From Streptomyces sp. R44 (GTDB lineage Bacteria; Actinomycetota; Actinomycetes; Streptomycetales; Streptomycetaceae): a stretch of DNA of 64,000 nt. Shown piece by piece: positions 48,124 through 63,247 of the stretch (the first letter of the stretch is position 1; each line of letters opens with the position of its first letter). Location of the stretch: NCBI RefSeq assembly GCF_041053105.1, contig NZ_CP163444.1, positions 1,054,001-1,118,000 of the forward strand, read 5' to 3'. The position numbers and the translations under genes were made by a program. The notes under the pieces were generated by a model, which made no database searches, was not told the DNA's origin, and worked only from the letters and a program-made list of their open reading frames with translations.

Positions 48124-49743
48124 CTACCGCAGGTAGCCGAGCACCGTCATCATCCCGGATTCCGCGTGGTAGACGTTGTGGCAGTGGATCATCCACAGGC
48201 CGGGGTTGTCGGCGTCGAAGTCGACGTCGAGCCGCTTGCCCGGCAGCACGATCGAGGTGTCCTTGCGCGCGCCGCCGTCCGCGAGCGCGTAGGTGTGGCC
48301 GTGCAGGTGCAGGGGGTGCCACATCGTCGTGCGGTTGACGAAGGACAGCCGGACCCGCTCGCCCGAGCGGACCGGGTGGCGCTGAGCGGGGTCGTACTTC
48401 TTGCCGTTGATGGCCCAGTCGTACGTCATCATCGAGCCGGTCAGCTCGAACTCGATCGTCCGGTCCGGACGCCCCGGTGCGAGCCGTACGGCCTCGGCGG
48501 CCTTCAGCTGCCCGCCGTGGACGACCTTGCCGTCGAGCTCCTTCGGGCGTGCGGAGGCGGTGGGCGCCGATCCGCCGCCGGTACGGAGGACGGCGAGGGC
48601 GGTGCGGTTCTTGCCCTCGGCGAGCGCGGTGAGCGGGAAGACCCCGTTCCCGACGGTGACGATGGCGTCGAGCCGCTCGCCCATGCCGAGCAGGAGCGCG
48701 TCGGCCTTCGCGTGCGCGACGGGGAAGCCGTCGGCGTGCGTGACCGTGAACGCGTGGTCGCCGAGGGCGACACGGAAGGCGGTGTCGCCGCCGGCGTTGA
48801 TGACGCGGAGCCTGATCCGGTCGCCGGGCTTGGCCGTGAAGGTCTGCGGCTGGTCGGGCGTACGGCCGTTGACGAGGTAGTACGGGTGGCCGACGTCCCC
48901 GGCGTCCCCTCCGAGCAGCTCGCTCGTGGCGCCCATCAGCATGCGGGAGGGGCCGGCCGGCTTCGGCGACGGCGACCTCCTCGTGGTCATCGACATGCTC
49001 GACATGTCGTGGCCGGAGCCGCCGTGGTCCATGCCACCGGAGCCGGAGCCGGAGCCGCCGTGGTCCATGCCGCCCATGCCCTTGCTCAGCTCGGCGAGCA
49101 CGGCGTCCGGGGTGGAGCCGTCGACGCCGTCGACCCAGTCGTCGAGGACGATCACCCACTCCTTGTCGTACGCCAGGGGCTCCTTGGGGTCCTCGACGAT
49201 CAGCGGGGCGTACAGGCCGCGGTCCTGCTGGACGCCGGAGTGGGGGTGGAACCAGTACGTGCCGGGGTGGGAGACGGCGAAGCGGTGGTCGAAGGAGCCG
49301 CCCGGCCTGATGCCGCGCCCGGTGAGACCGGGGACCCCGTCCATGTCGTTGCGCAGCGCGAGTCCGTGCCAGTGAATGCTGGTGGCCTCGGGCAGATGGT
49401 TGGCGAGGGTGAGGGCGAGGGTGTCGCCCGCGGTGACCCGGATCTCCTTGCCGGGGAGGTCGTCCCCGTACGCCCAGGAGCGGACGGTCCGTCCGCCGCC
49501 GAGGTCGAGCGGGGTCTCGACGGCCGTGAGGGTGAACCTGCGCTCCGGGCCGGGGCGGCGGAGGGCCTCGGCCGCGCCGACCTCCTTGCCGTCCGGAGCG
49601 AGGTAGTCGGCGCCGGGCGACGTGCCTCCCGCGCCGGCGGAGTGGTCCATGCCGTTCATGGAGCCGGAACAGGCGGTGAGCAGACCGGTGCCGGCGGCGG
49701 CGAGGCCGGCGCCGAGGACGGTACGACGGGTGGGTCGGGACAT
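48124..49743 (-). CDS. Multicopper oxidase (copper resistance type)
   Basis: The 539-aa protein has a twin-arginine signal (RPTRRTVLGAGLAAA) ending in a lipobox-like LLTACSG, so it is probably Tat-exported and lipid-anchored. All copper ligand motifs are present: HWHG, WFHPHSG, HPLHLHGH and the type 1 site HCHNVYHAESGMM. A Met/His-rich insert (GGMDHGGSGSGSGGMDHGG, then DMSSMSM) lies between domains, typical of CopA/CueO-like cuprous oxidases. It should oxidise Cu(I) or organic substrates outside the membrane. The DUF6153 gene upstream on the same strand suggests a copper-handling operon. Confidence 0.92.
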   Translation of the reverse strand: MSRPTRRTVLGAGLAAAGTGLLTACSGSMNGMDHSAGAGGTSPGADYLAPDGKEVGAAEALRRPGPERRFTLTAVETPLDLGGGRTVRSWAYGDDLPGKEIRVTAGDTLALTLANHLPEATSIHWHGLALRNDMDGVPGLTGRGIRPGGSFDHRFAVSHPGTYWFHPHSGVQQDRGLYAPLIVEDPKEPLAYDKEWVIVLDDWVDGVDGSTPDAVLAELSKGMGGMDHGGSGSGSGGMDHGGSGHDMSSMSMTTRRSPSPKPAGPSRMLMGATSELLGGDAGDVGHPYYLVNGRTPDQPQTFTAKPGDRIRLRVINAGGDTAFRVALGDHAFTVTHADGFPVAHAKADALLLGMGERLDAIVTVGNGVFPLTALAEGKNRTALAVLRTGGGSAPTASARPKELDGKVVHGGQLKAAEAVRLAPGRPDRTIEFELTGSMMTYDWAINGKKYDPAQRHPVRSGERVRLSFVNRTTMWHPLHLHGHTYALADGGARKDTSIVLPGKRLDVDFDADNPGLWMIHCHNVYHAESGMMTVLGYLR

Positions 49744-50273: not shown

Positions 50274-51053
50274 CTAGGCCGGGTCCGCCGCCTCGTCCTC
50301 GCGCGGGGCGGCCGAGGCCAGGATGCGGTCGAGCAGCGCGTCGAGGCCCTCCGTCAGCTCCTGGTAGCCGCCCTTCTCCGCCAGGGCGGGCACGGTCGCA
50401 CGCAGCCGGGGAAGCTCGTGGGCCGGCATCAGGTGCAGGCCCAGGCGGAACGCCGGATCGGGCTCGTCGGGGTTGTCGACCATGGCCCGCAGGTCGCTGA
50501 AGATGTAGCCGAGCACCCAGGCGGTGACCGCCCGGTACGCGGTGACGACGCCCCGTTCGTCGAGCCCGGCGCGCTCGAGGAGGGCCAGGACCCGCTCGTG
50601 GGCCTTCAGGACCGCGAGTGGGCGGCGGGCCAGCGGGACGGCGAGGAGCCGGGTGGCGAGGAGCGGCACGACGTGCGGGTGGGCGAGGGAGACGCGGTAC
50701 AGGGCGCAGGCGCCGCGCAGGAGTTCGGCGCGCCACGCGGGCAGGTCGGGCGATTGGCCGAGGGGGGCGGGCTCCTCGCGGTCGAGGTCCGCGTGCAGCT
50801 CGATGTAGAGCTGTTCGACGAGGCCGTCGAGGAGCGCGTCCTTGCTGGGTGCGTAGCGATAGAGCGCCATCGCCTCGACGTCGAGTTCGGCGGCCACCCG
50901 CCGCATGCTCAGGGCGGACAGGCCCTCGTGGTCCACGACGTCGAGGGCGGCGGCGAGCACGCGCTCACGGCTCAGCCGGCGCCGGCCGCGGCGGCGCTCC
51001 GTGCTGTGGCCGATGTCCACCTTCCGGCGGTCCGGCTGGGGGCTGCTGGCCAT
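50274..51053 (-). CDS. TetR family regulator with tetracycline-repressor-like C-domain
   Basis: The start is set at ATG 51053 (MASSPQPDRRKVDIGH). The 259-aa protein has an HTH near residues 28-75 (RERVLAAALDVVDHEGLSAL, then MRRVAAELDVEAMALYRYAP) and a TetR_C-like ligand domain with LLRGACALYRVSLAHPHVVP. It is divergent from the envelope-glycan operon that begins at 51241, with a 187-bp AT-rich region between, so it may regulate that operon. It may equally serve the copper genes downstream of it, which lie in the same direction. Confidence 0.85.
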   Translation of the reverse strand: MASSPQPDRRKVDIGHSTERRRGRRRLSRERVLAAALDVVDHEGLSALSMRRVAAELDVEAMALYRYAPSKDALLDGLVEQLYIELHADLDREEPAPLGQSPDLPAWRAELLRGACALYRVSLAHPHVVPLLATRLLAVPLARRPLAVLKAHERVLALLERAGLDERGVVTAYRAVTAWVLGYIFSDLRAMVDNPDEPDPAFRLGLHLMPAHELPRLRATVPALAEKGGYQELTEGLDALLDRILASAAPREDEAADPA

Positions 51054-51145
51054 GGGGTGCCTCCGGCTCGACGTCGCACTGCGACTGGTACCGACTATAT
51101 CCGAACGCCTTGAAGGCATATATTTACACCATAAGTGGACATTTA

Positions 51146-51174
51146 TTGACAGGCATGACAAGGCGGCGCAATAT
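51146..51174 (+). promoter_or_regulatory. Candidate promoter of the glycan operon
   Basis: A consensus -35 TTGACA at 51146-51151, a 17-bp spacer and CAATAT at 51169-51174 lie about 70 bp upstream of ATG 51241. The region 51095-51190 is far more AT-rich than the rest of the window (for example catatatttacaccataa). GCCTTGAAGGC at about 51109 is a small palindrome that could be a regulator site. Confidence 0.5.
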
Positions 51175-51240
51175 GTATGTTTAACGCGTAGACGTACGGC
51201 GACAGCGCGTCTGCCCCGTCCTCCGCTGGAGGCCGCTGAC

Positions 51241-53856
51241 ATGGACGGCAACCGCATCACCCGCACCGAGTGCTCCGAGCTGAACGACCCGCAGCCACGC
51301 TCCCGGCCCCGGCTGACCCTGGTCATCCCGACGCGCAACGAGCGCGAATCCGTCCCGCTGCTGCTGAGTGCCCTGGAACCCGCCTTCGACGGGCTGCCCG
51401 TCGAGATCCTCTTCGTCGACGACAGCGACGACGACACCCCGGCAACGGCCGCGCGGCACGCCCCGGCCTGCCGGCTACCGGTCCGCATGCTCCACCGGGA
51501 GAGCGGCGCCCGGGAGGGCGGCCTGGCGGGTGCCGTCCTCGCGGGCGCACGCCACGCCCGGGGCGCGTGGGCCCTCGTCATGGACGCCGACCTCCAGCAC
51601 CCGCCCCAGGCCGCCGCCGCCCTCGCCCGCACCGCCCTCGGACACGGCGTCGACATCGTGGTCGGCACCCGCTACGCAGGGTCCGGATCGACCGGGGACG
51701 GACTCGACGGCCCGACCCGGCGGCTCGTCTCCCGCGGCAGCACCGTGCTCGCCAAGACGGTCTTCCCGCACCGTCTCGCCGGCGTCAGCGACCCCATGAG
51801 CGGGCTCTTCGCCTTCCGCACCGCCGCGATCGACCTGGACCGGCTCAGCCCCCTCGGCTTCAAGGTGCTCCTCGAACTGCTCGTCAGGCACCCGGGCGCC
51901 CGCGTGGCCGAGGTCTCCTACCGGTTCGCGCCCCGCGCGGCCGGCACGTCCAAGGCCTCGCTGCGCGAAGGGCTGCGGTTCCTCCGTCACCTGGCCCGGC
52001 TGCGCCGGCCCGAGCCCGGCGGAAGTCGCGGCGGCGGCCGGCAGGCCGCACCCGACCGCCCCGGCCTCGGCACCACCGCCCGGTTCTTCGCCTTCGGACT
52101 CGTCGGCCTCAGCGGCATCGCCGTCAATACCGCCGCCCTCTGGTTCTTCCACACCGTCGTGGGACTCCATCAGCTCCTCGGCGCCACGCTCGCCACCCAG
52201 GTGTCCTCCCTGTGGAACTGGGCCCTCCTGGAGACGCTCGTCTACCGCGGCGGCCAGGGCGGCGGCAGGCGCGCGGCCCTCGTCCGCGGCATCGCCTTCC
52301 TCGCCCTGAACAACCTGCTGCTGCTCGGCCGCCTGCCCCTCCTCCAGGCGCTCGTCCTCGCCGGGGTCGGACTGCTCACCGCCAACGTCATCAGCCTCGT
52401 CGTGCTCTTCGTGGTCCGGTTCCTCTTCAGCGACCTGCTCATCTACCGCGGCCGCCGCGACGACGGAGCCCGCCGCGACCCCGTGCGCGTCCTCGTGGCC
52501 CCCGGCGCCACCCTCCCCGGAGCCCCGGAACCCAGCGCCACCACCACGGCGCCCGAGGCCCCCGAGGCCGCCCCGGCCCACCCCAAGCGCCCCCGGTACC
52601 TGACCTACCGCTACGACATCGCCGGCACCGTCACCATCGGCTCCCAGATACGCCTGCCCGAGCTGGAGTTCTTCCGCGCCCAGTGGGTACCGCCCGACTC
52701 CTGCGACATCACCGTCCGCGTCGGCGACGTGGGCCGCCGGTTCCCGCGCCACCGCGCGGTCATGACCGAGATCCCCGGCCGCGGCGCACCGCAGCCCACC
52801 ACCGTGCAGTACGAGGAGCAGCTCGGCCGCCTCGGCGCCAACTTCCGCGTCGACATAGGCACCCCCATCGACGTCGTCGTCAGCCCGCTCCTCGCCCGCT
52901 CCCCGCACGTCGTCTACACCAACGTCCTGGAGGCGCTGCTGCGCTTCGTGCTCGTCTCCCGCGGCCGGATGCTGCTGCACTCCGCGTGCGTCGAGCTCGG
53001 CGGCACCGGCGTGATGCTCTCCGCGCTCACCGACACCGGCAAGACGTCCACGGTGCTGCGGCTGCTGAGCGAGCACGACGGGCGGTTCCTGTCCGACGAC
53101 ATGACCGTCGTCGACGCCGGCGGCAACGCCCTGTGCTTCCCCAAGCCGCTCACCATCAGCGCGCACACCCTGCACGCCGTGCGCTCGGACGACCTGACCC
53201 CCCGCGAGTGGCACCGGCTGCAGCGGCAGAGCCGCCTGCACTCCAAGGAAGGCCGCTCCTTCGCCTTCACCCTCGCCCGCCACAACCTCCCCATCATGGG
53301 CATCAACGCGGTCACCCAGATCGTCGTCCCGCCGCCGAAGTACGCCGTCGACCGGCTCGTGGACTGCCGGCTGAGCAGCGCGGTCAAGGTGACCGAACTG
53401 TTCGTCATCGAGCGCGGCGAGCCCCGCCTGAGCGAGCTCGGCCACGAGGAGACCGTCAGCCGGCTGCTCGTCAACACCGAGGACGCGTACGGATTCCCGC
53501 CCTTCCGGTACTTCGCCCCCGCCATCATCGTCGACGGGCTCGACCACGCCCGGCTGCGCAGCCGCGAGCGGGACGTCCTGTCCGGCTTCCTCTCCGGCGT
53601 CCGGACCCGCGTGCTGGCCTCCGACCGCTTCGGGTGGGCCGACGAGATACCCCGGCTCCTCGCCGTCGACCGGCCGTCGGTCAACGGCCGCCGGGTCCCC
53701 GGGGCCGAGGAGAGTCCGTGGCCGCACTGGGAGCCGGAGACACCCGGGGGCGCGGCACCGCAGCCCGTGCGCTCCGGCCTCGGGCCCCTCTCCACCGCCG
53801 TGCCGACCGACCCCCGCTCCTCCCGTACGAACGACCCCGGTGGGAGGACGCCATGA
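51241..53856 (+). CDS. GT2 glycosyltransferase-GtrA-HPr kinase-like fusion
   Basis: The start is set at ATG 51241 after GGAGG. The 871-aa protein has three parts. Residues about 25-255 are a GT2 domain of the dolichol-phosphate-mannose synthase type (LTLVIPTRNERESV, VDDSDDDT, VMDADLQHPP, and a terminal AGTSKASLREGLRFL). Residues about 280-405 are a GtrA-like four-helix membrane domain (FFAFGLVGLSGIAVNTAALW). Residues about 455-800 include an HPr kinase-like P-loop ATPase: LLHSACVELGG, then SALTDTGKTSTVLRLL with the Walker A Lys at 601, then FLSDDMTVVD. GT2-GtrA fusions are known polyprenyl-phosphate glycosyltransferases; the kinase-like extension is unusual to me. It is likely to make a polyprenyl-P-sugar donor used by the next gene. 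Confidence 0.85.
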   Translation: MDGNRITRTECSELNDPQPRSRPRLTLVIPTRNERESVPLLLSALEPAFDGLPVEILFVDDSDDDTPATAARHAPACRLPVRMLHRESGAREGGLAGAVLAGARHARGAWALVMDADLQHPPQAAAALARTALGHGVDIVVGTRYAGSGSTGDGLDGPTRRLVSRGSTVLAKTVFPHRLAGVSDPMSGLFAFRTAAIDLDRLSPLGFKVLLELLVRHPGARVAEVSYRFAPRAAGTSKASLREGLRFLRHLARLRRPEPGGSRGGGRQAAPDRPGLGTTARFFAFGLVGLSGIAVNTAALWFFHTVVGLHQLLGATLATQVSSLWNWALLETLVYRGGQGGGRRAALVRGIAFLALNNLLLLGRLPLLQALVLAGVGLLTANVISLVVLFVVRFLFSDLLIYRGRRDDGARRDPVRVLVAPGATLPGAPEPSATTTAPEAPEAAPAHPKRPRYLTYRYDIAGTVTIGSQIRLPELEFFRAQWVPPDSCDITVRVGDVGRRFPRHRAVMTEIPGRGAPQPTTVQYEEQLGRLGANFRVDIGTPIDVVVSPLLARSPHVVYTNVLEALLRFVLVSRGRMLLHSACVELGGTGVMLSALTDTGKTSTVLRLLSEHDGRFLSDDMTVVDAGGNALCFPKPLTISAHTLHAVRSDDLTPREWHRLQRQSRLHSKEGRSFAFTLARHNLPIMGINAVTQIVVPPPKYAVDRLVDCRLSSAVKVTELFVIERGEPRLSELGHEETVSRLLVNTEDAYGFPPFRYFAPAIIVDGLDHARLRSRERDVLSGFLSGVRTRVLASDRFGWADEIPRLLAVDRPSVNGRRVPGAEESPWPHWEPETPGGAAPQPVRSGLGPLSTAVPTDPRSSRTNDPGGRTP

Positions 53857-55478
53857 GCCGTCCCACGTACTCCCCCGCCGACACCGACGCGCGGACCACC
53901 ACCCCCGGCCCCGAGGCCCACCGCAGCGTCCGCCCGCGCCGGCGCCCCACCGCCGACCGGATGGTCCGCACCGTCCTCCCGCTCACCGCCATCCTCGCCC
54001 TGGCCGCCTTCCTGCGGTTCTGGCAGCTCACCCAGATCGGCTTCAACAGCGACGAGGCCGTCTACACCGGCACCGCAGCCTCCCTGGCCGGCGACCCGGC
54101 CATGCAGCCGGTGTTCCCCGTCTTCCGCGCCCACCCCGTGCTGTTCACCGGCTTCCTGTCGCTCTTCCTGCGCGGCGGCACCGACGAGTTCACGGCCCGC
54201 GCGGTCGCCGCCGTCGTCGGCGTCGTGACCGTCGGCGTCACCTATCTCCTGGCCCGCAGGCTGTACGGCCGGGGCGCGGGGCTCGCCGCCGCGCTGCTGC
54301 TCGCCGTCATGCCGTACCACGTCGTGGTGACCCGTCAGGTGCTGCTCGACGGGCTGATGACGCTGTGCGCGACGGTGGCGCTCTACTGCGTCGTACGGTA
54401 CGTGCAGGCCGACCGCGACGGGCTGCCCTGGCTGCTCGGCGCCGCGGGGGCGCTCGGGGCCGCCGCGCTCTCCAAGGAGACGGCGCTCGTGCTCGTCTGC
54501 GGCCTGTACGTGTTCTTCGTCCTCAGCCGCTCGGTGAAGATTCGCTGGCGGCACGCCGTACTCGCCACCGGCCTCCTCGCCCTCGTCGTCGTCGCCTTCC
54601 CGCTCGCGATGTGGATCTCGGGCCGCACCGCCACCGGCCAGCACTACCTGCAGTGGCAGCTGTTCCGGCGGGCCAACCACCCGATGGGCTTCTACGCCAC
54701 CACGGTGCCGCAGGTCCTCGGCTGGGCCGTCCTCGCGGCCGCCGTCATCGGCCTCGTCTGGCTGCGCCGCCGCAACGGCTGGCGCGAGGCTCTGCTGCTG
54801 TGCTGGATCGCCGCGCCCGTGCTGTTCTTCACCCTGTGGCCCGTCAAGGGCTTCCCGTACCTGCTGCCGATCGCGCCGCCGCTCGCCGTGCTCGCCGGCC
54901 GCACCCTGGGCGCCCTGGCCGGGCTCAAGCCGCGCGTCGGCCGGCTGCGGGTGTCGCCCCGCCGGCTGTCCGCCGCCGGCGCCGTCCTCGTCGCGCTCGC
55001 CGTCGCGCTCTCCCTCGCCCTCCCCGCGGCCGGCCGGATCACCGCCACCCCGACCGGCTCGTTCCTCGCCGGTTCCGGCGGCCTCGCCGGCGGCCGAGAG
55101 GCCGGCCAGTGGGTGCGCGACCACGTGCCCGGCGGGGCACGGCTCCTCGCCGGCGGCCCCTCCGTCGCGAACGTGCTCCAGTTCTACGGAGGCAAACCCG
55201 TCTCGGCCCTCTCGGTGAGCGTCAACCGGCTCTACCGCAACCCCTCGTACACGCCGGTGCCCAACCCCGACCGCGCACTGCGCGACGGCGAGTTCCAGTA
55301 CGTCGTCTGGGACTCCTACACCGCCCGGCGCGCCCCCTTCTACGGCGAGAAGATCCGGCAGCTGGTCGACAAGTACCACGGCAGGGCCGTCTACACCTCC
55401 CCCGTGCGGGTTCCCGCGTCCTCCGCCGACCCGACGCCCACTCCGGTCATCGTCATCTACCAGGTGCGTGTGCCATGA
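53853..55478 (+). CDS. GT39/ArnT-like membrane glycosyltransferase
   Basis: ATG 53853 overlaps the upstream stop as ATGA. The 541-aa protein has about ten to eleven membrane helices, an early acidic loop (GFNSDEAVYTGTAASL) typical of GT-C enzymes, and a C-terminal extracellular domain (GREAGQWVRDHVPGG, LQFYGGKPVSALSVS). It belongs to the GT39/dolichyl-phosphate-mannose protein mannosyltransferase superfamily. It should transfer a sugar from a polyprenyl-phosphate donor, plausibly the one made by the preceding GT2 protein, to an exported acceptor such as one of the anchored proteins encoded downstream. Confidence 0.88.
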   Translation: MSRPTYSPADTDARTTTPGPEAHRSVRPRRRPTADRMVRTVLPLTAILALAAFLRFWQLTQIGFNSDEAVYTGTAASLAGDPAMQPVFPVFRAHPVLFTGFLSLFLRGGTDEFTARAVAAVVGVVTVGVTYLLARRLYGRGAGLAAALLLAVMPYHVVVTRQVLLDGLMTLCATVALYCVVRYVQADRDGLPWLLGAAGALGAAALSKETALVLVCGLYVFFVLSRSVKIRWRHAVLATGLLALVVVAFPLAMWISGRTATGQHYLQWQLFRRANHPMGFYATTVPQVLGWAVLAAAVIGLVWLRRRNGWREALLLCWIAAPVLFFTLWPVKGFPYLLPIAPPLAVLAGRTLGALAGLKPRVGRLRVSPRRLSAAGAVLVALAVALSLALPAAGRITATPTGSFLAGSGGLAGGREAGQWVRDHVPGGARLLAGGPSVANVLQFYGGKPVSALSVSVNRLYRNPSYTPVPNPDRALRDGEFQYVVWDSYTARRAPFYGEKIRQLVDKYHGRAVYTSPVRVPASSADPTPTPVIVIYQVRVP

Positions 55479-56968
55479 AGCCGCTGACCGTCCGTCTGCT
55501 GACAGCGCTGGCCGGCGCGGCACTGCTGCTCGGCCCCACCACGGCGGCGACCGCGACCGGTGCCGAACCCGGCCCCGACCCGGGCCGCGGCGCCGCCGCC
55601 GAACACCGCGCGACCACCCCCGTGCAGCACTTCATCTACGTGATGCAGGGCCCCCGGACCTTCGACAACTACTTCGGCACCTACCCCGGAGCCGACGGCA
55701 TTCCCGCCGACGCCTGCCAGCCGCGCACCGTCGGCGGCCCCGCCTCCGACTGCGTGCGGCCCTACGCCCTGCACGCCAAGGCCCCCGCCCCGCTCGCCCC
55801 GAGCCGCAGCATCATCGCCCAGCAGATCAACGGCGGGCGCATGGACGGCTTCGTGTCCGCGTACACCCGGCAGGGCCGGGACGGCACGACCGTCATGGGC
55901 CACTACGACGCCCGTGACGTGCCGTTCGACTGGGCCGCCGCCGACCGCTACGTGCTCTTCGACAAGTTCTTCGCCTCCGTGCCCTACGGCACCGCCACCG
56001 AACGCTCCTACTGGGTCTCGGGAGCCGCCCCTTCGGCGGGCGGCCGCACCACCATCTTCGACCGGCTCCAGCAGGCCGGGGTCAGCTGGAAGTTCTACGT
56101 CGAGGACTACCGGCCCGGCGAGAACTACCACGCACCCGGCGCCACCCAGCCGGTACGCGCCCCGCTGCTCGGCTACGCCCGCTTCGTCGACGACCCCGCC
56201 CTCGCCTCCCACATCGTGGACCTGGACCAGTACTACCGCGACCTCGACAACGGCACCCTGCCGTCGGTGGCCTACATCGCCAGCTCCGGCTCCTCCGAGC
56301 GCTCCGCGCGGGCCATCCCGCCCGGCCAGAAGCTGATCCGCTCGCTGGCCACCCAGCTCGCCCTCAGCCCCTACTGGGACAGCTCGGCGCTGCTGTGGAG
56401 CCACGACGGCTCCGGCGGCTGGTACGACCACGTGGCCCCGCCCGCCGCCGCCGACGGCCCGCGCGGCCTGCGCGTCCCGGCCCTCCTGATCAGCGCCTAC
56501 GCACCTGCCGGGCACATCGACCACCGAGTCCTCGACTCCTCGTCGGCGCTGCGCTTCATCGAGGACAACTGGAACCTGGCACCCCTCGGCGGACGGGACA
56601 CCACCGCCGCGAGCCTCGCGGCCGCCTTCGACTTCTCTGCCGCGCCACGACCCCCCGAGGTGCTCGCCGTCCCCTCCGCGCGGCCCGTCGTCCGGCCGGT
56701 GAACGCCACCGTCGTGTACGCGGTCTACGGCGGCGTCCTCGGCACGGCCGCACTGCTGGTCGCGGGCACCGTCCTGCTCACCGCCCGCAGACGCTCCACG
56801 GCCCCCGCGGCCCCGGCCGACCGGCCGGCGTCCGGCCCGTCGGCTCCGCGCGGCGAGTCCGCTCCGTCCGGCCCGTCCGCTCCGTCCGGCCCGTCCGCTC
56901 CGTCCGCACCGTCGGCTCCCTCCGACCCCTCGGCGCAGTCCCGTGCGCCGGAAAGGAGCCGGCCGTGA
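55475..56968 (+). CDS. Membrane-anchored phosphoesterase-family protein, probably inactive
   Basis: ATG 55475 overlaps the upstream stop as ATGA. The 497-aa precursor has a signal peptide (TVRLLTALAGAALLLGPTT), a domain of the phospholipase C/acid phosphatase (phosphoesterase) family, a C-terminal helix (VYAVYGGVLGTAALLVAGTV) and a Ser/Pro-rich cytoplasmic tail. Family members have VMQENRSFDNYFGT, where Glu and Asn bind metal; here it reads VMQGPRTFDNYFGT. The distal LLWSHDGSGGWYDHVAPP keeps the Asp and His positions. Loss of Glu-Asn suggests a binding or altered-activity role. It sits in a glycan operon among other anchored proteins. Confidence 0.82.
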   Translation: MKPLTVRLLTALAGAALLLGPTTAATATGAEPGPDPGRGAAAEHRATTPVQHFIYVMQGPRTFDNYFGTYPGADGIPADACQPRTVGGPASDCVRPYALHAKAPAPLAPSRSIIAQQINGGRMDGFVSAYTRQGRDGTTVMGHYDARDVPFDWAAADRYVLFDKFFASVPYGTATERSYWVSGAAPSAGGRTTIFDRLQQAGVSWKFYVEDYRPGENYHAPGATQPVRAPLLGYARFVDDPALASHIVDLDQYYRDLDNGTLPSVAYIASSGSSERSARAIPPGQKLIRSLATQLALSPYWDSSALLWSHDGSGGWYDHVAPPAAADGPRGLRVPALLISAYAPAGHIDHRVLDSSSALRFIEDNWNLAPLGGRDTTAASLAAAFDFSAAPRPPEVLAVPSARPVVRPVNATVVYAVYGGVLGTAALLVAGTVLLTARRRSTAPAAPADRPASGPSAPRGESAPSGPSAPSGPSAPSAPSAPSDPSAQSRAPERSRP

Positions 56969-58200
56969 ACCGCCGTACCGCACGCCGCCACGCGGCCGCG
57001 CTCCTCGCCCTGCTGACGGCACTGCTCCTCGGCTTCGCCGGGCCGGCCGCCGCCGCCCACCCCGCCGTCGCCGCCACCGGCACCGGCACGCACCGAGCCG
57101 ACCCGAACGTCACCGTCACCATCCGCACGGTCCCGGCGGTGCCCGGCGTCCGGCTGGTCTTCGGCGGCCAGTCCCTCGTCACGGGCTCCGACGGCACCGC
57201 CACGTACACCGGCGCCCGGACCGCGGACCGCCAGTCGCTGCGCCTGCTCGACACCTCCGTCGACACCCCGGACGCCCACTACCGCTTCACCCGCTGGGCG
57301 GGACAGCGCGACCCGCAACAGGCGTTCAGGAGCCACGTCGACGGGCTGCCGCTGCGCGCCGACTACACCATCACGGCCGGCTTCACCGTGCAGTACCCGG
57401 TGACCGTCGCCTTCACCGACCAGCACGGCGCGCCCCTGGACCCGTCCCTGGTATCGGCGGTGCAGGTCAGGAGCTCCGACGCGCGCATCACCGATCTGTC
57501 CGTGTCCGGGACCACCTGGCTGGACGGCGTCGTGCCCGTCTTCCGCAACAGCGGCCTGACGCCCGTTCCGCTCGACTACACCCTGCGGAGCCTCGTCTAC
57601 GACGGCGTCCAGCTCGCCGGCGCCGGACGGCAGGGCTTCCGGCCCGGCCCCGACCGGCACCTGACGTTCACCGGCGCCTTCCACGACCTGACGGTCACCG
57701 CCCACGACGCGCTGTTCGGCTCCGCGACGGGCGACAAGGCCACCGTCACCGACCCCGCAGGGCACGTCACGACCGTCTCGCTCGGACCGGACCACACCGC
57801 CGTCCTGTCGCACCTGCCGCGCGGCCGGTACACCGTCGAGGTGAAGGCCCCCGGCGGCAGCGCGAACCCGCGCGAGATCCAGCTGTCCCAGTCGGTCACG
57901 GCCGACGTGACCGTGGTCAGCCTGACCGACGTCCTCGTCCTCGCCGGTGCCGGCCTGCTGCTCATCGGGATACCGGTCGTGATCCGGCTGAGGCGCCGGA
58001 CCCGCCGCACCGCCGCGGGCCCGGCCCCCGGCAGCGGCCCCGGCACCGGCAGTGGCACCGGCAGCGGCGTCGGCAGCGGCAGCGGCGTCGGGCGGGGCGC
58101 CGGCGGCCCGCGTGAGCCCGTACCGGCGGAAGAGCCCGAGCAGCCGGAGGGAGCGGAGAAGGCGCCCCCCACCCCGTGCCCCGGGGCGGCGTCCCGATGA
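56965..58200 (+). CDS. Membrane-anchored beta-sandwich-like surface protein
   Basis: GTG 56965 overlaps the upstream stop as GTGA. The 411-aa precursor has a signal peptide (AALLALLTALLLGFAGPAAA), a long Thr/Val-rich extracellular region that looks like several beta-sandwich domains (for example TVTIRTVPAVPGVRLVFGGQ, TVAFTDQHGAPLDPS, LSHLPRGRYTVEVKAPGG), a membrane helix (VLVLAGAGLLLIGIPVVI) and a Gly/Ser/Thr-rich tail. The segment FGGQSLVTGSDGTATYTG resembles Cna-B/carboxypeptidase-regulatory-like folds. I cannot name a family. It may be an acceptor or scaffold for the operon's enzymes. Confidence 0.7.
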   Translation: MNRRTARRHAAALLALLTALLLGFAGPAAAAHPAVAATGTGTHRADPNVTVTIRTVPAVPGVRLVFGGQSLVTGSDGTATYTGARTADRQSLRLLDTSVDTPDAHYRFTRWAGQRDPQQAFRSHVDGLPLRADYTITAGFTVQYPVTVAFTDQHGAPLDPSLVSAVQVRSSDARITDLSVSGTTWLDGVVPVFRNSGLTPVPLDYTLRSLVYDGVQLAGAGRQGFRPGPDRHLTFTGAFHDLTVTAHDALFGSATGDKATVTDPAGHVTTVSLGPDHTAVLSHLPRGRYTVEVKAPGGSANPREIQLSQSVTADVTVVSLTDVLVLAGAGLLLIGIPVVIRLRRRTRRTAAGPAPGSGPGTGSGTGSGVGSGSGVGRGAGGPREPVPAEEPEQPEGAEKAPPTPCPGAASR

Positions 58201-59417
58201 TGCGGCGGCTCTGGGCCCTCCTCGCCGCACTCCTCCTGTGCTGGCCGGGCCTCAGCGCCGCATCGCCGGGCCCCCGGCCCGCCGTCGCGCCCCCGACCGG
58301 CGAGGTCTCCCGTCCGCCACTGCTCGCCTACTACTACCAGTGGTTCAGCCCCGGCTCCTGGCAGCGGGCCAAGACGGACCTGCCGCTCGCGGGCCCGTAC
58401 TCGAGCGACGACACACAGGTGATCGACCGCCAGATCACCGAGGCCAGGTCCGCGGGGATCGAGGGGTTCATCGTCGGCTGGAAGCACGGCACCGTGAACG
58501 ACCGGCGGCTGCGCAAGCTCGTCGAAGCCGCCGAGGCCAGGAACTTCAAGCTCGCCATGATCTACCAGAGCCTGGACTTCCACCGCCGACCGCTCCCCGT
58601 CGACCAGGTCGCCGCCGACTTCCGGTACTTCCGCGACCACTTCGCCGACAGCCCCGCCATGCTGCGCGTCGGCGGCCGCCCGCTGACCGTCTGGAGCGGG
58701 ACCTGGCGCTATTCCCACGACGACGTCGCGACCGTCACCTCCGGCGTCCGCGGCGAACTGCAGGTGCTGGCCAGCGAGAAGAACGTCGACGGCTACCGGC
58801 GGATCGCCGACGTCACCGACGGCGACGCCTACTACTGGTCCTCCGCCGACCCCGAGACCACCCCCGGATACGCCGAGAAGCTCCAGGACATGGCACGGGC
58901 CGTGCACGCCGACCACAAGATCTGGCTGGCCCCCTGCTCGCCCGGCTTCGACGCGCAGCTCGTCGGCGGCACCAGGCCCGTCCCCCGCCGCGACGGTGCG
59001 ACGCTGGCCGCCACGTACGCGGCCGCGCTGCGCTCCTCGCCGGACGCCATCGGGCTGATCAGCTGGAACGAGTTCTCCGAGAACACCCATGTCGAACCCT
59101 CCCGCGACCACGGCGACCGCTTCCTGCAGGTGCTGCGCGACCTCCGCGGAGCCCCCGCGGCCGCCGCGTACCAGGACAGCGGGAACAGCCCCGTCCGGCC
59201 GGTCGCCCGGCCGGACCCCTCCCGCGGCTACTGGGCGCTCGTCGGCGTGGCCGTGCCCCTGCTGCTCGTCACCCCGCTCGCGGTGCGCCGGCTGCGCGCC
59301 GCCCGGTCGTCCGGCCCCGCCCCTGGCGAGCAGCGGCGAACGGACCCCGGGCGAGCGGTCAGCAGGTCACCGGCGTCGACGTCCCCGCCGTGTTCCCGGC
59401 CAGATCGCGCGCCCTGA
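58197..59417 (+). CDS. Membrane-anchored GH99/GH71-like glycoside hydrolase
   Basis: ATG 58197 overlaps the upstream stop as ATGA; the next codon is also ATG. The 406-aa precursor has a signal peptide (LWALLAALLLCWPGLSAA), a catalytic domain with the early LLAYYYQWFSPGSW, then GIEGFIVGWKHG, AMIYQSLDF and the terminal-strand motif LISWNEFSENTHVEPS, and a C-terminal helix (YWALVGVAVPLLLVTPLAV). The WNExxExTxxEP motif is that of GH99/GH71-like endo-acting alpha-mannanases and alpha-glucanases. It may trim or remodel the glycan built by the upstream transferases. Its last 59 bp overlap the convergent phosphatase gene. Confidence 0.85.
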   Translation: MMRRLWALLAALLLCWPGLSAASPGPRPAVAPPTGEVSRPPLLAYYYQWFSPGSWQRAKTDLPLAGPYSSDDTQVIDRQITEARSAGIEGFIVGWKHGTVNDRRLRKLVEAAEARNFKLAMIYQSLDFHRRPLPVDQVAADFRYFRDHFADSPAMLRVGGRPLTVWSGTWRYSHDDVATVTSGVRGELQVLASEKNVDGYRRIADVTDGDAYYWSSADPETTPGYAEKLQDMARAVHADHKIWLAPCSPGFDAQLVGGTRPVPRRDGATLAATYAAALRSSPDAIGLISWNEFSENTHVEPSRDHGDRFLQVLRDLRGAPAAAAYQDSGNSPVRPVARPDPSRGYWALVGVAVPLLLVTPLAVRRLRAARSSGPAPGEQRRTDPGRAVSRSPASTSPPCSRPDRAP

Positions 59418-61143
59418 CCTCGTAGGTGTACGAGGCCGGGCAGACGGCCGTCTTGTCGCTGAAGGTCAGCACCGTCTGCGGAACCGTGGCCAGGTACGTC
59501 CCGTCGCGGTACACGTCGTACGTCGCGAGCTGGGTGTCGTCGCCGCCCGCACCCCACGTCAGCTTCATCGTGGTGGAGGCGGTACGGGTGACCGTCAGGG
59601 GGGAAGGCGCGGACGGAGGCGTGCCGTCGGCGGAGAAGTCGTAGGACAGCGTGTCGAACGAGTTGCCGAGGGAGTCCGTCGGGGTCACCGTCAGCGTCGA
59701 GCCGAGGACCGAGACGAGCAGGAAGTGGTGGACGTTCGCGTCGGCAGCGGGGATCGGCACCGAGGAGGGGCAGCGCTTGCCCGCGTTGGCGCTGTAGGAC
59801 CAGCCCAGGGCGTAGGCGTCCGTCGGGTCGCAGCCGTGGCCGCCGACCGAGCTGAGCTTGGCGCCGGCGCCGCCGGTCACATAGCTCGGCACGCCGCCGG
59901 GCGGGGCGACGTTGCGCTGGTAGATGTGCGCGTGGCCGTTGAAGACGAGGTTCACGCCGTTGTCGTGAAGCAGCTGTTCCAGGGTGTCGGTGCTGCCCGG
60001 GTTGTTCTTCAGGTACTCGTCGTCCGGCTCGGTGGGGTCGTCGGAGCGCAGCGGGAAGTGGAAGGCGGCGACCTTGACGCCGCCGGGGTGGGCGGCGAGG
60101 TCCTGCTGGAGCCACTGGTACTCGGCCGAGGAGGTCGTCCAATGGGCGGCCGCGTCGACCTGGTAGATGTCGCAGTGGTCGGTGCCCTCGCAGTTGTTCC
60201 CGTCGGCGTTGCCGACGTTGCCGTCGCTCCAGGACGTGTCGAGGACGTAGAACCGGACGCCGCCGCTGCTGAAGGCGTAGTACGTCGTCGGGTAGCTCGC
60301 CGGGGTGCTGCCGAAGAACGACGGGTAGCTGACCTGGGAGTAGACGCCGTTCGAGGCCGCCGTGACAGCGGGCTGCGGCCAGGTGGGCAGGAACGTGGTG
60401 TTGCGGCCGTGGTTGCCGTTGGTGGAGAACATCGGCAGGGTCTGGCCGGGCGCCGCGTAGTACTCGGGCGCGAAGACGCCGCTGATGTTGACGCCGGTCT
60501 GCTGGAGGTCGCCGTAGTTGGTCTGGTTGCCGCTGGGGTAGGCCACGTCGCCGGTGGACAGGGCGAAGCGGGCGCCGCTGGCGGCCAGCCGGGACATGAC
60601 GTTGGCCTGGTCCTGGTTGAGGGCCCCGCTGTTGACGCCGTTGCTGGTGGTGTCGCCCCAGTCGCCGAGCACCGCGAACGTGAAGGGGGCCGGCGAGCCG
60701 TCCGGCACCATCGTGGTGAACGCGGGCGAGGAGTTGGTGCCGAGCAGGTCGATGGGGGTGGCGTCGCCGGTGAAGACCCGGTAGCAGTACGGGGTGTCGG
60801 GGCTGAGGTTCGGCACGGTCACCGAGTTGCTGTACTCGGTGACCCCGTTGACGGTCATGGTGGTGCCGAGGGTGGCGGACGTGACCGAGTTGGCCGTGCA
60901 GTTGCCGAGCGGCCCGTACTTCACGGTCTGCCGGCTGCGGGTGCTGGTCGCCCACGTCACCCGGACGGAGCCGGGTGTGAGATCCGTCAGGTAGGGGGCC
61001 CGGGTGAGGACCGGGGAGGCGCCGGGCAGGTCGGCGTGGGCGGGGGCGGTGCCGAGGGCCGCCGACAGGGCACCGAGCGCCACGGCGGCGCCGGCGAGGT
61101 GGAGGCCTCGGCGGTGGCGTCCGACGGATGCGAACACAGGCAT
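59359..61143 (-). CDS. Secreted purple-acid-phosphatase-like metallophosphoesterase
   Basis: The 594-aa precursor starts after AAAGGAC and has a signal peptide (LAGAAVALGALSAALGTAPA). An N-terminal fibronectin-III-like domain (PYLTDLTPGSVRVTWATS) precedes a calcineurin-like phosphatase core with all metal motifs: VLGDWGD, STGDVAYPSG, NGNHGRN, AAFHFP and NGHAHIYQR. A second Fn3 domain (residues about 505-594, APSPLTVTRTASTTMKLTW) ends the protein. The layout is that of actinobacterial purple acid phosphatases. The 3' end overlaps the convergent GH99-like gene by 59 bp. Confidence 0.92.
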   Translation of the reverse strand: MPVFASVGRHRRGLHLAGAAVALGALSAALGTAPAHADLPGASPVLTRAPYLTDLTPGSVRVTWATSTRSRQTVKYGPLGNCTANSVTSATLGTTMTVNGVTEYSNSVTVPNLSPDTPYCYRVFTGDATPIDLLGTNSSPAFTTMVPDGSPAPFTFAVLGDWGDTTSNGVNSGALNQDQANVMSRLAASGARFALSTGDVAYPSGNQTNYGDLQQTGVNISGVFAPEYYAAPGQTLPMFSTNGNHGRNTTFLPTWPQPAVTAASNGVYSQVSYPSFFGSTPASYPTTYYAFSSGGVRFYVLDTSWSDGNVGNADGNNCEGTDHCDIYQVDAAAHWTTSSAEYQWLQQDLAAHPGGVKVAAFHFPLRSDDPTEPDDEYLKNNPGSTDTLEQLLHDNGVNLVFNGHAHIYQRNVAPPGGVPSYVTGGAGAKLSSVGGHGCDPTDAYALGWSYSANAGKRCPSSVPIPAADANVHHFLLVSVLGSTLTVTPTDSLGNSFDTLSYDFSADGTPPSAPSPLTVTRTASTTMKLTWGAGGDDTQLATYDVYRDGTYLATVPQTVLTFSDKTAVCPASYTYEVRARDLAGNTAGTSTPVTC

Positions 61144-61439
61144 TCACGGGTCCTTTCAGCCTCCGTCGCGGCCTGCCGGAGGCGTCGGCCAGGAGACGGT
61201 GGGGACGGAGGCACCGTCGGAAGGTAGGCACGCCCGGGGGCTTGGGCGGGTCGGCGCGGCCGGGCCGTCGTGACCGGGCCGTCGCATTCACCCGATCGGG
61301 GCGCGTGGTGTCTGCCGGTCGGGCGACAAGCCGTGTCCTTCGGTCCCGACCGCCGCCCGGTACGGGAAGAAGGGACAGGGCCCAGGCCCCGCACCCCTGC
61401 CTGGGGCTGCCCTTTCCGCCGCTCTCTTGGAGGCCCCCC

Positions 61440-62567
61440 GTGCCGGCACGCGACTCGCAGGACGCCACCCGCCGTCGGTCCGTCGGCCGGCTGCGGGCGA
61501 TCCTGGCGGCGGCCGCCGTCGCCGCCTCGACGGCGGCCGCGCCCGCCGGTGCCGCGACTCCGGTGCCGCCGCAGCAGGACGACGCGACCGACCGTGCCTA
61601 TGTCGCCAACGCCACCGCCAGGACGGTGTCGTTCCTGGACACCGACGACCGGACCGTCACCCACACGGTGTCCGTGCCGTCCGGCGCGGCCGATGTGGGC
61701 GTGTCCCGGCGGATGCACCGTGCCTATGTGCCGGGCGGCCATGACTCGCGCACCGTCAGCGTCATCGACACGAATCGGGCGAGGGTCGTCGGTCACATCC
61801 GGGTCGGTGACCGGCCCGAGGGAGTCGCCGTCAGCCGTGACGGCCGGCGCGCCTACGTCACCAACGCCGACTCCGGGACCGTCTCGGTCATCGACACGGC
61901 CGGGAACCGGGTCGTGCGCACGGTGCGGGTCGGCACCTTCCCCAAGGGCCTGGCGGTCTCCCCCGACGGCGGTCGCGTCTACGTCGCCAACCTGCTCTCC
62001 GGCAGCGTGTCGGTGATCGACGCCCGCCGGGGCCGGGTCGTGGCGACCGTGGAACTGGGCACCGGAACCGCCGCCTACGACGTGGCCGTCAGCCCGGACG
62101 GCACCCTGGCGTACGTGAGCACGGGCAACGGGACGGAGTACGTGTCCGTCCTCGACACCCGCGCGGCGACCGTCCTCGACTCCGTGCCGGTCGAGGCCGG
62201 CGCGGAGTCGCTGGCCGTGGCGCCCGACGGGTCGGAGGTGTACGTGTCCTCCGGCTTCGGGAACGAGGAGGTGTCGGTCATCGACACCGAGATGGGCACG
62301 GTCGCGCGCAGCTTCCGTGTGCCCGGCGGCGCGGAGGGCCTCGCGCTCGGCTACGAGGGGCGGCAGATGTACGTCGCGACCGGGCTCGGTTCGCGGTCCG
62401 CGGTCTACGTCGACACCGAGACCGACCGGGTCATGGGCAGCACGACGGTCGGGTCCGGTCCGATGAGCGTGGCCGTCGAGGCCGAGCCGGAGCCGGTGGC
62501 TCCGCGCGCCGGTACCGGACGGCGGGTGCACTGGCAGACCGGCCAGAAGCAGTCCGGCACGCGCTGA
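61440..62567 (+). CDS. Secreted YVTN beta-propeller protein
   Basis: The start is set at GTG 61440, which follows GGAGG; the longer frame runs upstream into the divergent phosphatase's promoter region. The 375-aa precursor has a signal peptide (LRAILAAAAVAASTAAAPAG) and about seven propeller blades with the repeat pattern AYVTNADSGTVSVIDT, each followed by a VAVSPDG-type turn. YVTN proteins bind surface or secreted partners; no enzymatic residues are known. It is 296 bp from the divergent phosphatase gene and 11 bp before the DedA gene, with which it may be co-transcribed. Confidence 0.88.
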   Translation: MPARDSQDATRRRSVGRLRAILAAAAVAASTAAAPAGAATPVPPQQDDATDRAYVANATARTVSFLDTDDRTVTHTVSVPSGAADVGVSRRMHRAYVPGGHDSRTVSVIDTNRARVVGHIRVGDRPEGVAVSRDGRRAYVTNADSGTVSVIDTAGNRVVRTVRVGTFPKGLAVSPDGGRVYVANLLSGSVSVIDARRGRVVATVELGTGTAAYDVAVSPDGTLAYVSTGNGTEYVSVLDTRAATVLDSVPVEAGAESLAVAPDGSEVYVSSGFGNEEVSVIDTEMGTVARSFRVPGGAEGLALGYEGRQMYVATGLGSRSAVYVDTETDRVMGSTTVGSGPMSVAVEAEPEPVAPRAGTGRRVHWQTGQKQSGTR

Positions 62568-62578
62568 GCGCCGGCGCC

Positions 62579-63247
62579 GTGCCCATGACGACCCTCGCGA
62601 CCGGAGTCGACTGGTGGTCGCCCGACTACTGGATCTCGACCTTCGGTCTGATCGGCATCCTGGTCATCGTCTTCGCCGAGTCGGGGCTCTTCGCCTTCCT
62701 CCCGGGCGACTCGCTGCTCTTCACGGCCGGCCTGCTCGTCGCCGACGGCCGGTACATCCACCAGCCGCTGTGGCTGGTGATCGTCCTCCTCGTGGTGGCC
62801 GCCGTGCTCGGCGACCAGGTGGGCTACGCGATCGGCGCGTTCTTCGGGCCCAGGCTCTTCAACCGGCCGGACTCCAGGTTCTTCCGACGGGAGAACCTGG
62901 ACAGGGCGCACGAGTTCCTGGAGAAGTACGGGCCCAAGGCGATCGTCCTGGCCCGTTTCGTGCCGATCGTGCGGACCTTCGCGCCGATCGTGGCGGGGGC
63001 CGGGCGCATGAGGTACCGCACGTTCCTCACGTACAACGTGATCGGCGCCGTCGGCTGGGGCGCGGGCGTCACGCTCGCCGGTTACTGGCTCGGCCGGGTC
63101 GGCTTCGTCAGGGCCCACGTCGAGATCATCCTGATCGCGATCGTCCTGCTGTCGTTGGTCCCGGTGGTCCTCGGCGTCCTCAAGAGCCGCCGCAAGGCGA
63201 ACGAATCCCCCACGGACAGCCCGCGGTCGTCTCCCCGCGACCGCTGA
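62579..63247 (+). CDS. DedA family membrane protein
   Basis: The start is GTG 62579 or ATG 62585. The 222-aa protein has the DedA (SNARE-associated/VTT) layout: FGLIGILVIVFAESGLFAF, then LPGDSLLFTAGLL, a membrane segment with GDQVGYAIGAFFG, the conserved FVPIVRTFAPIVAGAGRM, and GYWLGRVGF, ending in a basic and Ser/Pro-rich tail. DedA proteins include undecaprenyl-phosphate and phospholipid flippases. Such a role would fit the nearby polyprenyl-phosphate glycosylation operon, but no direct link is shown. Confidence 0.9.
   Translation: MPMTTLATGVDWWSPDYWISTFGLIGILVIVFAESGLFAFLPGDSLLFTAGLLVADGRYIHQPLWLVIVLLVVAAVLGDQVGYAIGAFFGPRLFNRPDSRFFRRENLDRAHEFLEKYGPKAIVLARFVPIVRTFAPIVAGAGRMRYRTFLTYNVIGAVGWGAGVTLAGYWLGRVGFVRAHVEIILIAIVLLSLVPVVLGVLKSRRKANESPTDSPRSSPRDR

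Follow-up and report, generated by a model that had tools for sequence, protein, structure and literature searches.

A rare Streptomyces operon that joins a lipid-linked-sugar synthase, an HprK-like domain and membrane-anchored enzymes in a candidate extracytoplasmic glycosylation pathway

In three-component glycosylation systems, as laid out in the sections of two reports on which we draw (PMC11127046, PMC7389260), a GT2 polyprenyl-phosphate-sugar synthase works with a GtrA-family membrane protein and an outer-acting GT-C glycosyltransferase. In the polyprenyl-phosphoribose pathways, those of mycobacterial arabinan and of undecaprenyl-phosphate-linked ribofuranose, a phosphorylated lipid-carried sugar is dephosphorylated before GT-C transfer, according to the relevant part of the first of these reports (PMC11127046). 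Here we describe a five-gene operon from Streptomyces sp. R44, lying in a 64,000-nucleotide stretch of contig NZ_CP163444.1 (positions 1,054,001 to 1,118,000; hereafter the window) within an 8.89-Mb single-contig genome. The operon has the same GT2, GtrA and GT-C trio as systems of the GtrA/GtrB/Gtr and CsbB-GtcA-YfhO type and differs from them in two respects. First, the GT2 and GtrA parts are fused to an HprK-like domain. Second, there are an additional anchored phosphoesterase, a beta-rich protein, a GH99-like hydrolase and a linked metallophosphoesterase (Table 1). An earlier note on this DNA knew of no described system with this set, and the open-licence literature, judged by titles and abstracts, yielded no published pathway with the gene set or with a GtrA-HprK combination. 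We consider the locus best explained overall by a dedicated pathway of extracytoplasmic glycosylation that includes a phosphate step and a trimming hydrolase, an account that we hold with about even confidence.

The operon set is rare and occurs in some Streptomyces, in another class (genome G299) and in another family (genome G822). With the HprK-like segment of gene 1 as query, 7 of the 392 genomes of the genus gave a match at E ≤ 1e-20 (G000, G056, G120, G653, G681, G720 and G746); an earlier sample had given 10/199 at E ≤ 1e-3, three of them strong. Across the phylum the same segment matched 30 of 396 genomes at E ≤ 1e-3, strongly only in its own genome and in G299 (E 1.8e-69), and the G299 segment in turn matched just two of 394 genomes of the window's class at E ≤ 1e-12, that of the window itself and G822. 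The genes downstream are similarly restricted: the gene 4 query matched 6 of 41 relatives, where all matches outside its own genome are 20–23-bit matches to the C-terminal part; the gene 5 query matched 10 of 61, strongly only in its own genome and G056; and a gene 5 query from G299 matched one of 66 genomes in the class of G299, namely its own. A weak HprK relative in G447 (L067) was set aside, as its neighbors, one of them ATP-grasp-like by eye, do not resemble the genes of the operon.

All five genes stand in the same order in G056 (locus L035), G120 (L036), G653 (L076), G746 (L077) and G720 (L078). In G299 (L066) a separate GT2 gene precedes a GtrA-HprK fusion, followed by genes 2–5, while the order in G822 (L080) is gene 1, the metallophosphoesterase, genes 2, 3 and 4, and then a signal-peptide-like frame cut by the contig end. 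In G681 (L079) gene 1 is kept, and the place of genes 2–5 is taken by a different PMT-like gene and one for a 296-residue protein (L079 7900–10847); the former has a C-terminal bacterial-Ig-like part just under the cut-off, the latter is without a Pfam match, and these two overlap by 4 nucleotides, but there is no such overlap of gene 1 with the PMT-like gene. The locus of S. diastatochromogenes (L006; JAPTYK010000001.1, 20.9 kb compared) aligns in two segments within window positions 50283–63205 at 90% and 87% DNA identity; it and L076 were treated as the same locus and counted once. Frame changes occur inside several genes of this locus, perhaps as assembly errors.

The five open frames span 51241–59417 of the forward strand, and each of their four junctions is an overlap of exactly 4 nucleotides. 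Such overlaps occur at all four junctions in L035, L036, L077 and L078, at the three junctions among genes 2–5 in L066, and in L080 at genes 2–3, genes 3–4 and between gene 4 and the truncated frame that follows it, but not around the metallophosphoesterase; L006 was left out of this scoring because of its frameshifts. This recurrence in the loci of relatives indicates that the overlaps are more than chance. The earlier note had described five overlapping genes with 4-nucleotide junctions throughout, comprising two glycosyltransferases of the polyprenyl-phosphate pathway (a donor-maker and a transferase) and a GH99/GH71-like hydrolase as trimming enzyme, and had counted a lack of conserved order in other genomes as a point against itself. 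The reading frames confirm the junctions, the order is conserved in other genomes, and the family assignments of the glycosyltransferases and the hydrolase are supported by the matches and motifs given below.

The GT2 part of gene 1 (PF00535, 75.3 bits) has VMDADLQH as its acidic metal motif, and the GtrA part (PF04138) scores 36.2 bits against a cut-off of 26.1; the transmembrane-like segments fall within residues 282–401. Residues 136–509 align with residues 24–367 of 374 of the dolichol-phosphate-mannose synthase (DPMS) structure 5mlz, from Pyrococcus, at E 6e-45; both have the GT2 and the GtrA/DPMS membrane domain, to which gene 1 adds the HprK-like domain at the C-terminus. HPr kinases and HprK-related kinases carry a histidine, a Walker-A GKT/S and a DD motif in that order. 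The same H, GKT and DD motifs are found in the window as HSAC-x13-TDTGKT..SDD, and the kinase-type motifs H / TDTGKT / SDD are kept in 9/9 sources, the first reading HSAT in L077 and L078 and HAAC in L066. The HprK_rel_A, HprK_rel_B and hpr-ser models match weakly in all four aligned members (best E 4.3e-6). Unlike those kinases, the domain of the operon is fused to a membrane domain, and its scores in the window lie far below their cut-offs. The topology places it on the predicted cytoplasmic side. Gene 2 matches PMT_2 with 83.0 bits (cut-off 26.1) and its profile matches solved PMT chains, the best at E 2.2e-7; the motif G[FL]NSDEAVY is present in all eight sources having the gene.

Genes 3, 4 and 5 have C-terminal hydrophobic segments at residues 413–431, 311–329 and 345–363, respectively. 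Of the three, just genes 4 and 5 also have an N-terminal segment that passes this threshold; the N-terminus of gene 3 lies below it and is signal-peptide-like by eye. Gene 5 passes the cut-offs of both GH71 (56.3 bits, cut-off 34) and GH99 (40.5 bits, cut-off 33), and a profile of four sequences, in all of which the E292/E295 pair is invariant, ranks endo-alpha-mannosidase structures first (4acy, E 2.7e-20). A catalytic glutamate pair three residues apart is likewise given for human MANEA (E404/E407) in the part of PMC11025385 that concerns it. Gene 4 has no Pfam family over cut-off and is conserved in L035, L036 and L066 at 45, 54 and 29% identity; its counterpart in L080 is longer and matches at 25–30% identity. 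The CarboxypepD_reg-like part is sub-threshold in L066 (E 0.0013), profile matches to the PDB are weak (a cell-wall surface anchor protein ranks first, at E 0.013), and the structure model, with a predicted local distance difference test score (pLDDT) of 40.8, was too poor for a fold search.

Gene 3 belongs to the Phosphoesterase family (PF04185, 186.5 bits, cut-off 23). Its sites, presumed from work on AcpA and PLC to be metal-binding or catalytic, were read at the eight loci with the gene by alignment with 2d1g, 8yk5 and relatives. The EN position reads GP in the window, L077, L078 and L006, GG in L036, GD in L035, DQ in L080 and EN in L066. Where L066 has the acidic pair DD, the window, L006, L077, L078 and L035 carry DG, and L036 and L080 carry DS. 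L066 likewise has EHP at the E-H-P site, where ERS stands in the window, L006, L035, L036 and L080 and ETS in L078, with L077 left out. Conserved residues are thus lost in seven of the eight loci and intact solely in G299. With the changes EN>GP, DD>DG and EHP>ERS, the window protein is a predicted pseudoenzyme. At the position of the presumed threonine or serine nucleophile, judged by eye, threonine is found in the window, L006, L077, L078 and L035 and serine in L080 and L066, whereas L036 has isoleucine. We rejected the possibility that gene 3 is a decaying pseudogene, because its ratios of nonsynonymous to synonymous substitution (0.36–0.49) resemble those of the other four genes (0.31–0.73); these were computed against L035, L036, L077 and L078 and are rough values from a simple counting method on GC-rich DNA. 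The earlier note had also suggested possible acceptors or scaffolds among the anchored proteins. The gene 3 protein has a Ser/Pro-rich tail that follows the membrane helix, and this tail is an unlikely glycan acceptor because it is predicted to lie inside the cell.

Immediately downstream and convergent in the window, beyond the gene set of the earlier note, lies the gene for a secreted metallophosphoesterase, which, like that of L035, combines the Pfam domains Pur_ac_phosph_N and Metallophos; the one in L080 combines Metallophos and fn3. The motifs GDxG/GDxxY/GNH/GHxH, which are usual in purple-acid-phosphatase-type enzymes, are present in the window protein. A search with the L035 protein, in which up to four candidates were scored in each genome, gave matches at E ≤ 1e-40 in 5 of the 392 genus genomes (G000, G056, G653, G681 and G720). 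All five are among the seven with gene 1, and the gene adjoins the operon in each. The hypergeometric probability of this co-occurrence is 2.8e-10 with kinship ignored, the five genomes representing about three lineages as judged by the HprK identity to the window (93–95% vs 75%) and by arrangement. The gene is convergent to the operon in the window, L006/L076, L078 and L079, is the sixth gene in L035, with a 4-nucleotide overlap with the gene 5 stop, and is the second gene in G822. In G681 both it and gene 1 stay though genes 2–5 are replaced. Since the subfamily is found in 5/392 genomes, all with gene 1 and always adjacent to it, and since remnants are found in the other two genomes with gene 1, the metallophosphoesterase looks like a sixth component. 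The single locus with an intact gene 3, L066, is also the one without a metallophosphoesterase in the 20 kb read; elsewhere in G299 there are only weak matches (best E 1.6e-8).

In the pathway we propose, the GT2 domain would make a polyprenyl-phosphate sugar, probably mannose to judge by family and alignment, at the inner face of the membrane. The fused HprK-like domain would phosphorylate the sugar on its lipid carrier, or some other portion of the donor, on the cytoplasmic side, and the GtrA domain would anchor the synthase and might aid crossing of the donor. Outside, the gene 2 enzyme would transfer the sugar. In G299 the gene 3 enzyme, which looks intact, would remove the phosphate there; the secreted metallophosphoesterase would do so in Streptomyces and G822, where the anchored gene 3 pseudoenzyme may have been kept for binding or scaffolding. 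Finally, the gene 5 hydrolase would trim or release the glycan, which the gene 4 protein may bind or display. That both the gene set and its order are conserved in two classes speaks for such a pathway. More specifically, and only tentatively, the phosphate may be a removable tag, added to the lipid-linked sugar inside by an HprK-type kinase and removed by an outer phosphatase after export or transfer, a task in which an unrelated metallophosphoesterase would have taken over from the original, anchored gene 3 enzyme, which lost its active-site residues. The addition inside and removal outside are suggested by the kinase-type motifs adjoining a lipid-sugar synthase and by a secreted phosphatase that stays with gene 1 even where others have taken the place of genes 2–5. 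Gene order, overlaps, motif states and co-occurrence are direct observations, and it is from these that we infer the phosphate step. Whereas in the phosphoribose pathways the phosphate comes from phosphoribosyl pyrophosphate and a HAD-type module removes it in the ribofuranose system, as far as the part of the report used here goes (PMC11127046), we propose that here a kinase adds it and a secreted phosphatase removes it.

If correct, this would add a kinase-phosphatase cycle to lipid-linked sugar export, which could set the direction or the timing of flipping and transfer; we know of no described three-component system with such a cycle. The operon also offers a natural comparison between an intact phosphoesterase and a degenerate one with a likely replacement phosphatase, in a small, defined gene set that is testable in laboratory Streptomyces.

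Several observations weigh against this account. The HprK-like domain scores 15.1 bits with Hpr_kinase_C (Pfam cut-off 33.3) and 17–23 bits with HprK-type models whose cut-offs are 125–240, and the window protein reaches 22.6 bits with HprK_rel_A (cut-off 200). The structure model of the domain (pLDDT 29.5) was too poor for a fold search, and a PDB search with the domain gave no match at E 0.1. Because the score is below every curated cut-off and the model is poor, the case for kinase activity is an argument from motifs. On the phosphatase side, an intact gene 3 is known from a single genome, and some activity of the other gene 3 proteins is possible, as the presumed nucleophile is still T or S in 7/8 loci. 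G746 has a mere remnant of the metallophosphoesterase, a C-terminal match of 31 residues beside gene 5 and facing the operon (L077 6296–6388), with other genes in the place of its body. G120 has a 49-residue C-terminal match in the same position and orientation (L036 5771–5917; 55% identity, E 3e-11), as well as a different, fibronectin-rich metallophosphoesterase, 28–30% identical, on the operon strand at least 461 nucleotides downstream (L036 3364–5466). The latter may be inactive, because two of its motifs, GNKE and GNSH, differ from GNHE and GHxH, the forms usually found; neither phosphatase of G120 looks intact. The linked metallophosphoesterase could also serve phosphate scavenging, and gene 5 scores higher with GH71 than with GH99. 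The interpretation in the earlier note is upheld in part. It had recognized an HprK part in gene 1 without giving it a role, and the kinase-type motifs of this part are kept in every source read. It had called gene 3 a degenerate phosphoesterase, which holds for the altered sites of the window; the nucleophile position there is still T, however, and the G299 copy keeps all sites.

The sub-threshold HprK scores and the phosphatase remnants of G746 and G120 would fit three-component glycosylation without a phosphate step, decorating a surface polymer or protein, with the HprK-like domain sensing ATP or sugar phosphate to regulate the synthase and the metallophosphoesterase merely hitch-hiking. 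GT2, GtrA and GT-C are indeed the defining trio of the known systems, as the cited sections describe them. Yet the kinase-type residues are conserved across classes, and the phosphatase subfamily is found in three different arrangements, which argues against hitch-hiking; we regard this explanation as doubtful. Alternatively, the HprK-like domain might be a polyprenol kinase that recharges spent carrier, such that the fusion supplies itself with polyprenyl phosphate and the phosphatase acts elsewhere. Its fusion to GtrA, also where GT2 is separate (L066), would place a kinase at the lipid. However, when a sugar is transferred from a polyprenyl-phosphate donor, the carrier is released with its phosphate still on it, which leaves little need for such an enzyme, and the linked phosphatase would go unexplained; we think this unlikely.

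The DPMS-like and PMT-like families also suggest ordinary protein O-mannosylation by an accessory version of the Ppm1/Pmt pathway of Streptomyces, which is known in S. coelicolor from the portion of PMC5882110 that we cite. Common to both are a donor of the polyprenyl-phosphate-mannose type and a PMT-clan transferase. Canonical protein O-mannosyltransferases combine the PMT domain with a C-terminal domain of four transmembrane segments, whereas no C-terminal PMT domain is among the Pfam and profile matches of gene 2. Further, the operon has a different fusion and extra enzymes, the GtrA-HprK fusion, the anchored hydrolase and the pseudo-phosphoesterase being absent from the Ppm1/Pmt description in that portion of PMC5882110, and a rare distribution, with gene 1 in just 7/392 genus genomes; we judge O-mannosylation of this kind improbable. 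Least probable of all is foraging, with the anchored hydrolase and phosphatases digesting phosphorylated mannans outside and the glycosyltransferases serving self-marking: bacterial GH99/GH71 enzymes degrade mannan or glucan (PMC11025385, in the part cited), and G822 has sugar-type ABC transporter permeases and a binding protein (by eye) divergently upstream of gene 1 (L080 11419–14681), but by eye no sugar-uptake genes lie beside the operon in the window (44–64 kb) or in the L066 stretch, and the hydrolase gene is chained by overlap to the synthase genes in all six loci scored (window, L035, L036, L066, L077 and L078).

Table 1. Positions and predicted nature of the operon genes and adjoining features in the window
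Feature	Position	Strand	Description
Gene 1	51241..53856	+	GT2 polyprenyl-phosphate-sugar synthase with GtrA/DPMS membrane domain and C-terminal HprK-like domain (~52585-53694)
Gene 2	53853..55478	+	GT-C glycosyltransferase, PMT_2/GT39-like, N-terminal GFNSDEAVY motif
Gene 3	55475..56968	+	Membrane-anchored PF04185 phosphoesterase, predicted pseudoenzyme
Gene 4	56965..58200	+	Membrane-anchored beta-rich protein; sub-threshold CarboxypepD_reg-like part near C-terminal anchor
Gene 5	58197..59417	+	Membrane-anchored GH99/GH71-clan hydrolase, WNE-x2-E glutamate pair
Linked metallophosphoesterase	59359..61143	-	Purple-acid-phosphatase-like; secreted, signal peptide by eye; proposed sixth component
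TetR-type regulator	50274..51053	-	Divergent open reading frame, by eye; possible operon regulator

The frame of gene 1 allows an alternative start upstream at 50905; the ATG at 51241 is plausible because a TGGAGG ends 8 nucleotides upstream of it and the chosen starts of relatives align nearby. At the other end of the operon, the convergent metallophosphoesterase gene shares its last 59 nucleotides with the end of gene 5 (59359–59417). A scan of the locus for promoters and terminators gave nothing above chance. An origin from plasmids is unsupported: gene 3 gave 146 plasmid records, 0 of which cover 80% of the query, gene 5 gave three weak records, and the HprK segment and gene 4 gave no match; viral contigs held no relative of gene 3. 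The TetR-type regulator had no match beside the operon in L035, L036 and L079 and is retained there in L006/L076, L077 and L078. Outside the operon, the window codes by eye for a multicopper-oxidase-like protein (48124–49743, reverse strand) and for a YVTN beta-propeller-like protein (61128–62567), whose gene diverges from that of the metallophosphoesterase and has a collinear counterpart in S. diastatochromogenes.

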